Shown here: piece after piece, positions 3,612 through 9,758 of the stretch
Layout of the letters: each line of letters starts with the position of its first letter
Numbering within the stretch: the first letter of the stretch is position 1
Assembly: GCA_024694965.1 (NCBI GenBank)
Contig: JAILJC010000180.1
Span: 117,778 to 181,777, forward strand
DNA length: 64,000 bases
Direction of reading: 5' to 3'
Source: Lachnospiraceae bacterium
Lineage (GTDB): Bacteria; Bacillota; Clostridia; Lachnospirales; Lachnospiraceae
Position numbers and translations under genes: made by a program
Notes under the pieces: generated by a model
Database searches by the model: none
Told to the model about the DNA's origin: nothing
What the model saw: only the letters and a program-made list of their open reading frames with translations

Positions 3612-4967
3612 ATGAGTTATTGGATAGTTGTTGTCGATGATGAGCCGATAAGTCTCGCAAATGCCAAAAATCTTCTTGTCGAACAGGATATGAAGGTAAG
3701 TTGTCTGCGCTCGGGCAAGGATCTTATGAGGTTTATAAAGAACAATACTCCGGATCTTATCCTGTTGGATATCCTGATGCCCGAAATGGACGGTTTCGAA
3801 ACATATCGTGCTCTCCGCCAGCATGAAGAGAATACCGGCATGGCAAAGACACCGGTCATCTTTCTGACCGGAGAAAGCAACAGCGAGACCGAACGAAGGG
3901 GACTTAAGGCAGGCGCCTCTGATTACATACGAAAGCCCTTTGATAAGGATATATTTATAAAACGTATCAACAATACGTTAATGAACAGCAAAATGATCGA
4001 AAGCCTTACCGAAGAGGCTACGATCGATAAGCTTACGGGATTCTTAAATAAATCAAGCGGTACCGACAGGATTTCGCAGCTCATAAAAACACGTGCAGGT
4101 GCCCTGGTGGTTTTTGATCTTGACAGTTTTAAGCTGGTCAACGATCTTTACGGCCATGATATGGGCGATCGTATTCTTGTGGCATTTTCCGGTATTGTCA
4201 GGAATAACATACGGGCAGAGGATGTTGTAAGCCGGATAGGCGGCGATGAGTTCATGGCCTTTTTTGTCGATGTGGACGAAGAGGAAGCGATCTCATCGCT
4301 TACGAACCGCCTTAACGAGCAGCTGGTGCGGGAAGCGGAAGCCCTTATGGGCGGGGACTGCGGGATCCCGCTTGGGATATCTGTAGGAGCAGTATTTGCT
4401 TCGGATCAGAACAACGATTACCAGATACTTTTCCAATATGCCGACAGCGCTCTGTATAAAGTCAAACAGAACGGAAAACACGGGTATGCGATATATGACC
4501 GGGGCAGTGAGGACGAGGCCGGGGAAGTTGACCTTGAGAATGAGCTGCTCCGTGTTACAAAGATCGTTGAAGAGCGCGGAGAAGGAAAGGGCGCTATGCT
4601 TTTGGGCCGTGAAGCCTTCTCGTGGAATTACCGTCTCATCATCAGGCTTATAAAGCGTTATCGTACGGTTGCGGGCAGGATACTGTTTTCCGTTGAGTCA
4701 GATAAGAAGGATGTTATATTTTCGGAGATTGTTGCCGAATTTGGCAATGTCCTTAAGAATTCGCTGCGCAAGAGCGATATAATCTTTCAGAGTAAACAGA
4801 ATCAGTTTTTTGTGGTGCTCCTGCAGCTGACGCAGAAGGATACGCCAAAGGTTATCGAACGCGTGATGAAGAACTGGGAAAAGTCCGGGTATCACGACAG
4901 GGTAAAGATCGATCATGTGACCGGAGCTTTGACTGCGGATGATGAGAGGAAGCAGAGGAAAGAATGA
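3612..4967 (+). CDS. Response regulator receiver-GGDEF diguanylate cyclase with an extra C-terminal domain
   Basis: VVDDEP...LLDILMPEMDG...RKPFDK receiver; SRIGGDEFMAFF active-site motif; start at ATG 3612 after AGGAG. Confidence 0.9.
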   Translation: MSYWIVVVDDEPISLANAKNLLVEQDMKVSCLRSGKDLMRFIKNNTPDLILLDILMPEMDGFETYRALRQHEENTGMAKTPVIFLTGESNSETERRGLKAGASDYIRKPFDKDIFIKRINNTLMNSKMIESLTEEATIDKLTGFLNKSSGTDRISQLIKTRAGALVVFDLDSFKLVNDLYGHDMGDRILVAFSGIVRNNIRAEDVVSRIGGDEFMAFFVDVDEEEAISSLTNRLNEQLVREAEALMGGDCGIPLGISVGAVFASDQNNDYQILFQYADSALYKVKQNGKHGYAIYDRGSEDEAGEVDLENELLRVTKIVEERGEGKGAMLLGREAFSWNYRLIIRLIKRYRTVAGRILFSVESDKKDVIFSEIVAEFGNVLKNSLRKSDIIFQSKQNQFFVVLLQLTQKDTPKVIERVMKNWEKSGYHDRVKIDHVTGALTADDERKQRKE

Positions 4968-6094
4968 AAATCACAGTAAGGGAATATCCGCTGACTATCC
5001 TTATGGCAGTTCTGATACTTGCGTGTTTTGCAGGGTATCTTACCGGAGGGGATGGCGGGTTTTCGGCTACCGAGAACAGATATCTGGCAAAGCGTCCCGC
5101 CTTTTCGGTATCGGCAGTTGCCGACGGGAGCTTCATGGAGCAATTTGAGCTGTATGTAAAGGAGCAGCTTCCGCTGCGTGATATGCTGATAAGGTTAAAG
5201 GCAGCGGCTTCGGGAGTAATGCTCAAGAACGAAAACAACGGCATTGTTATGGGGAAGGACGGCTATCTGTTTGAAAAGCTCGTAAATACAGGGGAACAGC
5301 TGGATAAGAACAGGGCGGCGCTCAATGCTTTTGCGGATAAGTCGGGCAGGGACATACATGTGTGTATCGTCCCGAATTCATGTGAAATACTGTCGGACCT
5401 TAAACCGGCAGGTTTTCCCGGCATATCGCAGAAGGCTTATATAGATGATCTGTACGGAGAACTTTTAACTCACGGGAACGTGGGTACAACGGACTTATCG
5501 GGTATTCTTACGGAACATGCGGATGAATATATCTATTACCGTACGGACCATCATTGGACAACACAGGGTGCATATTACGGATATCTTAAGCTGTGTGATG
5601 ACATGGGACTTGAGGCTGTCGGATCAGATGAGCTTTCGGTGTTAAGGGAAGAGGCTTCCGGTTTTTACGGGACTTATTATTCAAAATACCGGGGACCGGG
5701 GGTGAAACCGGACACGATCACATATTATGATATACCGGTATTAAACTTTACGGCAGGAGATAAGGTTTATGATTCCATGTATGATCCCGAGAAGCTGAAG
5801 ATATATGACAAGTATGCGATGTTCATGCACGGTAACGAGGGGATCAGTGTTATCGAGTCGGTTCCCGGCGGCAGGGAAAAGAAAAATGAACTTATAATAT
5901 TCAAGGATTCATATGCCAACTGCCTGATACCTTTTTTAACATATGATTATGGCAGGATAACCGTCATAGATTTAAGGTATTATGCGGATCCCGTAAGTGA
6001 ACTGTTAAGCGAGCATCCCGATGCCGATGTCCTTCTTTTGTACAATTTTATGCATTTTAACGAAGATAATCACTTTTACAGGCTTACAGGCTGA
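4964..6094 (+). CDS. DHHW family protein (AlgX/AlgJ-like SGNH acetyltransferase fold)
   Basis: YYRTDHHWTTQGAYYGY motif, IIFKDSYANCLIPF; ATGA overlap with upstream CDS. Confidence 0.85.
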   Translation: MKITVREYPLTILMAVLILACFAGYLTGGDGGFSATENRYLAKRPAFSVSAVADGSFMEQFELYVKEQLPLRDMLIRLKAAASGVMLKNENNGIVMGKDGYLFEKLVNTGEQLDKNRAALNAFADKSGRDIHVCIVPNSCEILSDLKPAGFPGISQKAYIDDLYGELLTHGNVGTTDLSGILTEHADEYIYYRTDHHWTTQGAYYGYLKLCDDMGLEAVGSDELSVLREEASGFYGTYYSKYRGPGVKPDTITYYDIPVLNFTAGDKVYDSMYDPEKLKIYDKYAMFMHGNEGISVIESVPGGREKKNELIIFKDSYANCLIPFLTYDYGRITVIDLRYYADPVSELLSEHPDADVLLLYNFMHFNEDNHFYRLTG

Positions 6095-6105
6095 CAATAT
6101 GACGC

Positions 6106-6134
6106 TTGCAAGTTAATGCGTTTATTGATATATT
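6106..6134 (+). promoter_or_regulatory. Sigma-70-type promoter (TTGCAA-N17-TATATT)
   Basis: -35 6106-6111, -10 6129-6134, upstream of the SGNH gene. Confidence 0.45.
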
Positions 6135-6165
6135 GGAGTTGCGTATCTGATCGTATTTTAATCGG

Positions 6166-7302
6166 ATGGTGAGGGGAAAGGCTTTGAGCAGTAATAATCC
6201 GTTATTCAATTTATTTGGTCCGTCTTCATCGCAGGGCGGAATGAGCGAGGAGGAACTTGCCGTAGTTGAGCGCAGGCGTACGGTCAGGGTGATCTCCGTT
6301 GTTTTTGTTGTCCTCTGCACCCTCTTTCTTGCCGTGATGGCGGGAGCGATGATCGCACTGTGGGATACCGGAAAGTCATCCAGGGACCTTCTGGCCGTTA
6401 TGAACGGAAGTTATGTATATGCAAAAACCCAGGAAGAACTTGAACGCATCGCTAATGAAGAGGAAGCCATCGCACAGGCGGATCAGGAAAGCGAGATCAT
6501 AGATGAGGAAAACGATGAAGAAGGCTTAAGTGTCGTAAACGAGGTCTCAGCTGTCGATGATGCTGCTTTGAGTGAATCCGATGATGTATCTTTGCAGGAC
6601 AGTTCGGAATCGGGCATTGATTTTGTTGAGGATGCCGGGGCCGATGCGGAAGCTTCCATGATGTCAGGCCCGAAGATAAACGTTTATGTTGATCCCAACG
6701 TCAATTATCCGCTTCCTTTCAGCGAAGTTGACGAATCGTATTTTAATGATGCGCTGTTCATCGGGGATTCAAGGCTTCAGGGTTTTGGAATGTATTCCGG
6801 GATGCCGGGGACATTCTATGCCGCTACAGGCTTCCAGTTATATAAATATGATTCTATGGACGTGGTTACTACCGACAGCGGAAAAGTACCGATCACAGAG
6901 GCAATGCCTTATGATACCTTTACCAAGATATATATAAAGGTGGGGCTTAACGAAATGGGCGGTAACGATAATGTATTTTTGAGCAGATATAAGGAACTTA
7001 TCACATGGCTTAGGGAGAATGAGCCCAGGGCGGTCATATATATCCACGGACTGCTGCCGGTTACCGCAGCGAAATCGCAATCGGACAAGGTGCATAACAA
7101 TGACAATGTTAATGCCAGGAATGAGTCGCTTAAGCAGCTGGCAATGGAGCAGCGGGCATATTATCTGGATGTAGGATCGGCAGTGGCCGGAGCCGACGGA
7201 AGCCTGCCTTCCGAGATGGCTGCCGACGGTATTCACCTTAAGGCACAGTACATGGATATATGGAAGCAGTATCTATTGTCGCATGCGGTAGTGGTTCAAT
7301 AA
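6166..7302 (+). CDS. Membrane-anchored SGNH/GDSL hydrolase-type protein
   Basis: N-terminal TM (VISVVFVVLCTLFLAVMAGAMIAL), acidic linker, FIGDSRLQGF block I, DGIHLK block. Confidence 0.8.
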   Translation: MVRGKALSSNNPLFNLFGPSSSQGGMSEEELAVVERRRTVRVISVVFVVLCTLFLAVMAGAMIALWDTGKSSRDLLAVMNGSYVYAKTQEELERIANEEEAIAQADQESEIIDEENDEEGLSVVNEVSAVDDAALSESDDVSLQDSSESGIDFVEDAGADAEASMMSGPKINVYVDPNVNYPLPFSEVDESYFNDALFIGDSRLQGFGMYSGMPGTFYAATGFQLYKYDSMDVVTTDSGKVPITEAMPYDTFTKIYIKVGLNEMGGNDNVFLSRYKELITWLRENEPRAVIYIHGLLPVTAAKSQSDKVHNNDNVNARNESLKQLAMEQRAYYLDVGSAVAGADGSLPSEMAADGIHLKAQYMDIWKQYLLSHAVVVQ

Positions 7303-7320
7303 AAATTCGGAGGGGAAGTA

Positions 7321-7782
7321 ATGAAAAGAAAGATTATAAGTGTTTTTTCGGTTGTTTTGATCCTTGCGGTGTTAGCGGGATGCAAGGGTAACGCAGATGT
7401 GGATGCAGGTGCTCTGGCAGATGAGCTTAAGGGCCAGGTTACGTATAATGATGACCTTTCTGCAATAGACCTGGATACGGCAGGAATGTTTTACAGCTTT
7501 GGTGATGCGGATATCACGGAAGCATACTTTTATGAGAGCAGCGGAGCTACTGCCGAAGAGATCGCTGTAATAAAGTGCTCGTCCGATGCGGATGCCGGTA
7601 AGGTGGAGGAAATACTTAAGCGGCGTGTTGAGGAACAGAAGGAAAGTTTTAAGGATTATGTTCCCGCAGAGCTTGAGAAGCTCAATACAGCCATAGTACA
7701 AAGGTCCGGTAAGTGTGTGATCCTCTCTGTAAGTGACGAGCCGGACAAGGCAAGGGATATTATAAAGAAATATACAAAATAG
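7321..7782 (+). CDS. DUF4358-type lipoprotein
   Basis: Lipobox VLAGC; overall similarity from memory to DUF4358 proteins. Confidence 0.7.
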   Translation: MKRKIISVFSVVLILAVLAGCKGNADVDAGALADELKGQVTYNDDLSAIDLDTAGMFYSFGDADITEAYFYESSGATAEEIAVIKCSSDADAGKVEEILKRRVEEQKESFKDYVPAELEKLNTAIVQRSGKCVILSVSDEPDKARDIIKKYTK

Positions 7783-7921
7783 GATCACGAAGGAAGGCTG
7801 TTCCCGAGCTTAATTGATTGAATAGTATAAACAATTAGATGATTTATGAATATATAAACTAATAATGCAGCTTATTTGTGAAAAATTATCGAAAAATATT
7901 TAATAATTTATGAAAAAAGTA

Positions 7922-7950
7922 TTGACAATTCACAAATGCAGCATTATAAT
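7922..7950 (+). promoter_or_regulatory. Consensus sigma-70 promoter TTGACA-N17-TATAAT with an A/T-rich upstream stretch
   Basis: -35 TTGACA 7922-7927, -10 TATAAT 7945-7950, 17-nt spacer. Confidence 0.85.
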
Positions 7951-7956
7951 CTAGTT

Positions 7957-8303
7957 GTGAATTGAAAGAACAGAATTGATCATAAGTTTCGAATACGCGA
8001 TGCGGGTGTCGGGACTTGGGCAGTGGTCTTAGGGACACGATATTAGAACAGGACAGGCGATGTAAAGCACAGTACATTGAGAAGGGTATGTACATTATAG
8101 GTCCGGGTATCGAAGCCGAAGTCGGGAAAACTGAATAGGGAGTCGGATAATTATCGAGTGCAGGAGCACTTAAAAATTTATATAAATAAGTCGACCCCGG
8201 AAAGGTATTTGAAACGGAAAAGTGAGGTGCAGTCCATTGGGAACTGACGTGACTGAATGAGGGCGGATGCAGACGTAAAGAAGTCGCATCCGCTCTCATT
8301 TTT
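7957..8303 (+). ncRNA. Putative structured non-coding RNA (~345 nt), family unknown
   Basis: Consensus promoter, no plausible + strand ORF, several internal hairpins (8006-8010/8034-8038; 8072-8077/8088-8093; 8157-8161/8166-8170; long-range 8102-8113/8191-8201), ends at a 14-bp hairpin plus T-run. Confidence 0.65.
8257..8303 (+). terminator. Intrinsic terminator of the putative ncRNA
   Basis: ATGAGGGCGGATGC (8257-8270) pairs with GCATCCGCTCTCAT (8286-8299, one G-T wobble), followed by TTTT. Confidence 0.85.
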
Positions 8304-8393
8304 GTGCAGAGCACCCGGCGAGGTATTGTAAAGCTTAGCGGGGATGCCCCGAACGGGGTTTCTTTTTTGGGGATGAAATGTTAAAATATATGC

Positions 8394-9758
8394 ATGAAAA
8401 GGCTGGTCTTTCCGTTTATTATCATATTGTGCTGCCTAATTTTAGCAAGAAGGGTCGAAGCATCGGATAAGGTTGTCATAGTCATAGATCCCGGACATGG
8501 CGGTATAGGGGATGACGATACCGAAAACGGTGCACTTTATAAGGACGGTTTGGCAGAGAAGGATATCAATCTTGTAACCTCGCTTGCGATGAAAGACGAG
8601 CTTATGAAATACAATAACGTCGCGGTGTATCTTACCAGGGAGGATGACACAAAGCTGTCACTGGGAGAACGTGTTGATTTTGCCAGTATGGTACAGGCCG
8701 ACGTGATGATAAGCTGCCATTATAACGCCTCACAGGATCACCTGTTTTATGGTTCCGAGATATTTACATCCGCTTTCGGTAACTGTTATATGACGGGTAA
8801 TGCACTCGCACAGTGCATAATGAAGCGCTGGGTCGATAACGGTCTTGACGAAAAGGGTATCAAGGTACGTATAGGTAAAAACGGAAACGATTATTACGGA
8901 GTCATAAGAAAGGGAAGGGAAGCAGGCCTTCCCGTCATAATAATAGAACACGGTTATCTTGACAATCATATAGATTATGAGAGGCTCGGGACCTACGAGG
9001 ACTGGGAGAGAATGGGAAGGCTTGATGCGGCAGGAATAGCCGACTACTACGGGCTGAGCAGGGATGAGATCCTTGATGAAGTCCTGCCTGCTTTTTTCGC
9101 ACCGGAACCTGACGGGTATGTGGAACCCGATACAACCGAGCCTGAGGATGTTACCTTAAAGATCACCGATCTTGACATTGATACGAGTGAGATCAGCTAT
9201 GAGATAAAAGCAACTGAGCCTGACGGCTGCCTTATGTATTACGGACTTGCGCTGGGTGAGCCTGTCGATATACCACCGTCCGATTACGGGGATCTTATGC
9301 TGTGGGATAAGGGTAAGGACGTGATGAGGGGAACTTTCAGTGTTCCCACAGGATACAGTGGTAAGGTTACAGCCAGGGTATATAACATATACGAACTCTA
9401 TACCGATAGTCTTTCGAAGGATGTTGATATGCGTTCGCTGCTTGAAGAGAGGACCAGGCTTCTTGAGAAGGAAGCAAGGGAGGCTGCCGAGGAAGCAAGG
9501 AAAAAGGAAGAGGCCGCCGCGGAAAAAAGGCGCATAGCGAGCGAAAAGGCAAAGGAGAGAGAAGAGGTTGGAGATTTTTCCATCCTGCTCGGCGGACGAA
9601 ATGACGGAAGCGGGAAGATGAGTGAAGCAACCAGGAAAAGGAGGGTGGCCGCGCTTGTGACCGTGTTCATAATACTGACGGTTACACTGTTATGCATCAT
9701 AATATACAGTATGAGAAAGAAAATTATTAAATTTCTTAAAGATAGAGAAGGATTATAG
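8394..9758 (+). CDS. N-acetylmuramoyl-L-alanine amidase (amidase_3) with C-terminal coiled coil and TM
   Basis: VIVIDPGHGG, ISCHYNAS, VIIIEHGYLDN motifs; C-terminal TM VAALVTVFIILTVTLLCIIIY. Confidence 0.92.
   Translation: MKRLVFPFIIILCCLILARRVEASDKVVIVIDPGHGGIGDDDTENGALYKDGLAEKDINLVTSLAMKDELMKYNNVAVYLTREDDTKLSLGERVDFASMVQADVMISCHYNASQDHLFYGSEIFTSAFGNCYMTGNALAQCIMKRWVDNGLDEKGIKVRIGKNGNDYYGVIRKGREAGLPVIIIEHGYLDNHIDYERLGTYEDWERMGRLDAAGIADYYGLSRDEILDEVLPAFFAPEPDGYVEPDTTEPEDVTLKITDLDIDTSEISYEIKATEPDGCLMYYGLALGEPVDIPPSDYGDLMLWDKGKDVMRGTFSVPTGYSGKVTARVYNIYELYTDSLSKDVDMRSLLEERTRLLEKEAREAAEEARKKEEAAAEKRRIASEKAKEREEVGDFSILLGGRNDGSGKMSEATRKRRVAALVTVFIILTVTLLCIIIYSMRKKIIKFLKDREGL

Follow-up and report, generated by a model that had tools for sequence, protein, structure and literature searches.

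A family-wide class of Lachnospiraceae RNA genes with a predicted micro-ORF at the 3′ end

The window analysed here, a 64,000-nucleotide stretch of a Lachnospiraceae genome (contig JAILJC010000180.1), contains in a gene-free gap an unannotated RNA gene with its own strong promoter and strong terminator. Sequence comparison shows that this gene is a member of an RNA gene class that is spread across the family Lachnospiraceae and has a near-consensus promoter and a terminator. A covariance model of the 3′ domain finds matches, at E ≤ 0.01 and with E-values that are rough, in 195 of 299 genus representatives of the family. Since the window sequence was included in the model, its own score is not independent evidence, and its membership rests on synteny and shared anatomy. 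The evidence supports the original prediction that the gene stands alone, has a strong promoter, is specific to a lineage and falls outside Rfam, and its spread is much wider than had been guessed. The anatomy of the class points to the ribosome, and the best guess, with a probability of roughly 40%, is a regulatory RNA that engages ribosomes.

The locus, its orthologs and its fold

The features of the gene are collected in Table 1. The promoter and the hairpin with its T-run are present in the sequence as originally predicted, the promoter being an exact match. Both hexamers (TTGACAA...TATAAT) are perfect in all 25 extracted genus orthologs, which is far beyond chance.

Table 1. Features of the RNA gene in the window
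Feature	Positions	Strand	Basis or remark
Sigma-70-type promoter, TTGACA-N17-TATAAT	7922..7950	+	12/12 match; hexamers invariant in 25 genus orthologs
Predicted transcript, ~347 nt	7957..8303	+	Spacing from the -10 box and terminator; inferred start site
Three-way junction	8038..8112	+	P1 8038-8042/8108-8112, P2 8051-8054/8101-8104
Three-way junction, continued		+	P3 8057-8058/8067-8068 (8-nt loop), P4 8072-8077/8088-8093
Conserved block AAAACTGAATAGGG, genus consensus AMAAYTGAATAGGG	8127..8140	+	Kept in all four genus subtypes
Small hairpin AGTGC/GCACT	8157..8170	+	100% paired, one covarying pair
Shine-Dalgarno sequence of the micro-ORF, GAGGT	8224..8228	+	AGG core kept in most relatives
Predicted micro-ORF, TTG GGA ACT GAC GTG ACT GAA TGA (M-G-T-D-V-T-E-stop)	8237..8260	+	7 codons
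Intrinsic terminator, 14-bp stem (8257-8270 with 8286-8299) and T-run	8257..8303	+	Sequence; overlaps the micro-ORF stop

The only strong match in the window's own genome is the locus itself. Eleven genomes, this one included, match across most of the query at 76-100% identity, while in further genomes the match is confined to the promoter and the 3′ end; most of these genus ortholog genomes also keep the GDSL, DUF4358 and amidase genes on either side. Upstream in the window (4964-7782) lie consecutive DHHW/AlgX-like, GDSL and DUF4358 lipoprotein genes, reminiscent of polysaccharide-modification clusters. Just 5′ of the amidase gene, at 8346-8369, another hairpin resembles a terminator but is weaker (GCCCCGAACGGGGT, followed by T-rich sequence), and ortholog L078 has a similar one.

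The genus orthologs fall into four subtypes whose middles hardly align and which have in common short blocks, the micro-ORF region and the terminator. Because a one-step MAFFT alignment of the four subtypes is misaligned, helices were counted inside one subtype. In ten sequences of the window's subtype, the three-way junction and the small hairpin have 100% of cells paired, with three covarying pairs. In the other subtypes the P1 and P2 strands differ yet stay complementary, which is weak as sole evidence; the brute-force helix finder is also weak alone, since halves that do not belong together often form 8 of 9 pairs, and all 9 in 60 of 364 cases. The comparative data thus support the three-way junction, with covariation in the middle domain that is modest (three pairs). 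In the 3′ domain, 13 of the 15 consensus pairs are changed on both sides with pairing kept. The fold energy z-score is -6.1 for 7957-8303 and falls to -2.0 for 7957-8236, from which the terminator is excluded, so the terminator provides most of the fold-energy signal.

The helices originally proposed fared unequally. Those at 8072-8093 and 8157-8170 persist through compensatory changes, while one ortholog lacks GTGTC/GACAC, a pairing for which no covariation is seen. The long-range helix 8102-8113/8191-8201 is unsupported: 75% of its cells pair, which does not exceed the level in shuffles; the partner of TCCGGGTATCG is the upstream CGATA..GGAC (8038-8054). The designation as a structured non-coding RNA needs amending: the RNA is predicted not to be wholly non-coding, and the deepest conservation lies in the predicted micro-ORF, its Shine-Dalgarno sequence and the terminator rather than in the fold.

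Distribution and relation to known RNAs

Plain DNA BLAST gives no convincing match in other genera, whereas short-motif and covariance-model searches succeed. The motif AAGGAGGTACRGWCCACC lies near the 5′ end in most subtypes and is absent from the window's own. A search of named genomes with this motif finds at least 120 loci, mostly from Lachnospiraceae among the matches listed, and many of the loci among those listed have a consensus promoter about 30-100 nt upstream. When only good assemblies are counted, 161 of 245 family genomes match the covariance model; about one-third of the genera of the family have no match. In a phylum sample, no genome outside Lachnospiraceae scores above 34 bits. 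In an order sample, scores above 37 bits outside Lachnospiraceae are reached by two genomes, both from a single further family, and one of the two is a chance match at an ordinary gene start. Beyond the order, matches stay at background level. Two loci of another family of the order (L294 and L296) have four-codon micro-ORFs, MDNR* and MDDR*, with a near-consensus promoter upstream and are likely to be distant members; two others (L293 and L295) do not look real, the L293 match being an ordinary gene start.

Among family members, 75 of 86 have a promoter that matches the consensus at 11 or more of 12 positions. The promoter spacer often contains TTTGTCA or TTATCA, as in L176, L259 and L266; together with the -35 box this makes up an imperfect palindrome (TGACAAA...TTTGTCA) that could serve as an operator in some genomes. 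The RNA ranges from about 140 to more than 900 nt across relatives; this variation and the genera that have no match weaken the earlier description of the RNA as housekeeping-like. One locus (L119) has two complete tandem copies (motif 1 at 4178-4195 and 5030-5047, minus strand), and other genomes, for example G343, have two copies on different contigs. An origin in phages or plasmids was rejected, since the 5′ motif occurs in no viral contig and phage and plasmid collections give no match. Six IMG/VR contigs (L204-L209) contain the exact 17-nt 3′ motif GAGGTAYAGTCCATTGG.

The genomic neighbours vary from genus to genus, and the gene most often found downstream (21 loci) lies on the opposite strand. 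A cis-acting leader or attenuator was rejected, there being no conserved co-directional downstream gene across genera. Since the neighbours differ in this way, a cis role is unlikely and the RNA probably acts in trans.

Across the whole window every Rfam 15 family stays below its gathering score, and the matches that appear when 7800-8450 is scanned permissively are all at chance level. In 18 relatives Rfam recognizes only tRNAs, which lie elsewhere in the loci and leave the RNA itself uncovered. RNase P RNA is rejected because the RF00010 match of the genome sits on another contig (C69). 6S RNA is rejected as well: there is no RF00013 match at the locus, and separate 6S genes are present in 37 of 40 sampled family genomes, with none found in the window's own genome, an incomplete assembly. 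Coding on the plus strand at 8016-8138 is rejected because the frame is broken in orthologs.

The genera looked for are not mentioned in two papers on structured RNAs at genome scale (PMC11109978, PMC8632094). The RNA is absent from Rfam and has no description in searchable open-access papers; its novelty is provisional because the literature search covered open-access papers. A study of C. phytofermentans describes a very strongly initiated, unassigned transcript thought to be non-coding (PMC5171806), which may or may not be a member of the family; it lies 3′ of cphy2658, and its start site is the strongest one on cellulose.

The terminal micro-ORF and the start-less modules

The most constant part of the RNA is arranged as a Shine-Dalgarno sequence, about 9 nt, an ATG, TTG or rarely GTG, usually a GAY codon, and a stop at the foot of the terminator stem. 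The start column contains only A, T or G before TG, never CTG. For the GAGGT of the window, the predicted anti-Shine-Dalgarno duplex has an energy of -12.4 kcal/mol. The micro-ORF is usually five to eight codons long and acidic, with the pattern M-D-[S/E/N]-[I/E]-V. In a first set, a start and an in-frame stop before the stem are present in 46 of 47 non-redundant relatives. Of 85 non-redundant relatives in a second, independent set, retrieved with the model, 84 have an in-frame stop before the stem, as against 44 and 42 in the other two frames (Fisher p ~1e-14), and the single exception is probably L293, the start of an ordinary gene. GAT and GAC are used 32:31 at codon 2, and all three stop codons are in use. 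Asp or Glu is residue 2 in 73 of 83 peptides and the net charge is -1 or lower in 76, while residues 3-8 and the length vary.

Translation of the micro-ORF is strongly predicted from this comparison; the 3′ element would be conserved because it is read as a translation start. The earlier statement that no plus-strand ORF of useful length is present is literally right, and it missed the conserved seven-codon ORF. By comparative evidence, the RNA has the conserved ORF with Shine-Dalgarno sequence, start and stop that is one criterion for a dual-function sRNA. RNAIII, SgrS and Spot 42 are dual-function sRNAs of this kind, in which a regulatory-type RNA contains a small ORF. The present class differs from them in that its ORF usually has only five to eight codons and lies at the extreme 3′ end against the terminator, and in its start-less Shine-Dalgarno modules.

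Most relatives have one to eight of these modules, each of about 51-56 nt, with the form AGGAGGUACRGACCACC-RAA-ACN-UAA, in which a Shine-Dalgarno sequence is followed by CCN at the place of the start codon. The inner GG/CC is nearly invariant, the CCACC half is kept even where the 5′ half varies, and the same core recurs at the micro-ORF. Tandem arrays are found in an Anaerobutyricum hallii locus with eight units (L102), in L168 with three in about 200 nt, and in Blautia with three to five. Units collected upstream of model matches, where the 5′ pattern was not used, repeatedly combine an SD-like start with CCACC and, two codons on, an in-frame UAA. In the pattern-selected set, 84 of 133 CCN units have an in-frame stop at codon 4. 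SD-like AGGAGG or GGAGGT occurs in 52 of 73 leaders, compared with 11.2 expected from shuffles. A few units with a true start codon, Shine-Dalgarno sequence and stop encode MRT, MKS, MKK or MY (two to three codons). The shortest RNAs, of about 140-150 nt, have one module or none in addition to the micro-ORF. The window's subtype has no full module; the structured domain and the micro-ORF are retained in it, while the 5′ module has been lost.

Possible function

The repeated Shine-Dalgarno sequences, the strong predicted pairing with the anti-Shine-Dalgarno sequence and the minimal length of the micro-ORF are the reasons why the anatomy points to the ribosome. The modules would pair with the 16S anti-Shine-Dalgarno sequence and would be unable to start translation, while the terminal micro-ORF would be initiated and then quickly terminated. 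In this way the RNA would sequester 30S subunits or initiation capacity, or else sense them, as a counterpart in translation of the action of 6S RNA on RNA polymerase. We infer that the micro-ORF may be just long enough to give an initiating ribosome room ahead of the terminator hairpin. The fuller proposal, a family-wide mimic of mRNA start sites that sequesters or gauges ribosomes through its Shine-Dalgarno arrays and micro-ORF as a counterpart of 6S RNA, is more tentative. Plain Shine-Dalgarno mimicry does not require the CCACC half to be kept, which counts against a ribosome-engaging RNA, as do the missing full module in the window's subtype, the unmatched genera and the modest covariation of the middle domain.

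The nearly invariant inner GG/CC speaks for a rather unlikely alternative, in which the RNA is a decoy, like CsrB or RsmZ, for an RNA-binding protein that recognizes repeated AGGAGGUACRGACCACC and for which the micro-ORF start is one more site. Such a decoy would account for an element that is present two to eight times in some RNAs with the same core at the micro-ORF; it leaves the conserved reading frame unexplained, and the shortest RNAs have one module or none. CsrA itself is excluded as a general partner because many genomes with strong matches lack csrA (G079, G081, G086-G088, G092, G093, G095); the gene is present in 82 of 150 genomes. An ordinary base-pairing sRNA, whose fast-evolving middle pairs with mRNAs and whose micro-ORF is vestigial or stabilizing, is somewhat less probable again: its own promoter and terminator, the trans-type gene and the variable middle are as expected, yet the translation start, the stop position and the modules are most conserved, not a seed region. 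The micro-ORF could instead act as a minigene, its translation releasing peptidyl-tRNA and so slowing translation or depleting a tRNA. ORFs usually of five codons and the modules that are real ORFs of two to three codons suit this improbable reading, as does the reported rise in minigene toxicity with a strong Shine-Dalgarno sequence and UAA; the reported drop in toxicity as the ORF lengthens (PMC8708949) speaks against it, most modules have no start codon, and no single codon is conserved before the stop. Most doubtful is the proposal that the RNA serves to make the acidic peptide, which might act as a signal, for instance: none of the 83 peptides is net positive and residue 2 is mostly acidic, but the remaining residues and the length are not constant, five codons are tiny, and no consistent partner gene lies nearby.

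With its terminal micro-ORF and start-less Shine-Dalgarno sequences, the layout matches no searchable RNA family. The likeness of the proposed ribosome-engaging RNA to 6S RNA (RF00013), a trans-acting RNA with its own promoter thought to imitate the template of a central machine, is one of analogy only, as there is no sequence or fold match and 6S RNA is encoded separately. CsrB/RsmZ-type sponges share repeated short GGA-containing elements in a variable RNA, whereas here the element is longer and SD-like, its presence is not tied to CsrA and there is a micro-ORF predicted to be translated. The two-codon ORF in axe-txe (PMC8708949) and minigenes like it share a very short ORF with a Shine-Dalgarno sequence, translated there and predicted to be translated here; the axe-txe type acts in cis in mRNA leaders, while the present RNA has a gene of its own, complete with promoter and terminator. 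OLE, ROOL, GOLLD and raiA are also large, partly multi-branched RNAs from Bacillota, but they give no covariance match, and here length and fold are poorly conserved and a micro-ORF and modules are present.

Lachnospiraceae are dominant fermenters of the gut and rumen, and the RNA is predicted in about two-thirds of the sampled genera. Annotation pipelines do not report conserved ORFs as short as five codons, so further genes of this kind may exist. With the module array, the idea that an RNA may regulate translation by mimicking ribosome-binding sites can be put directly to the test.
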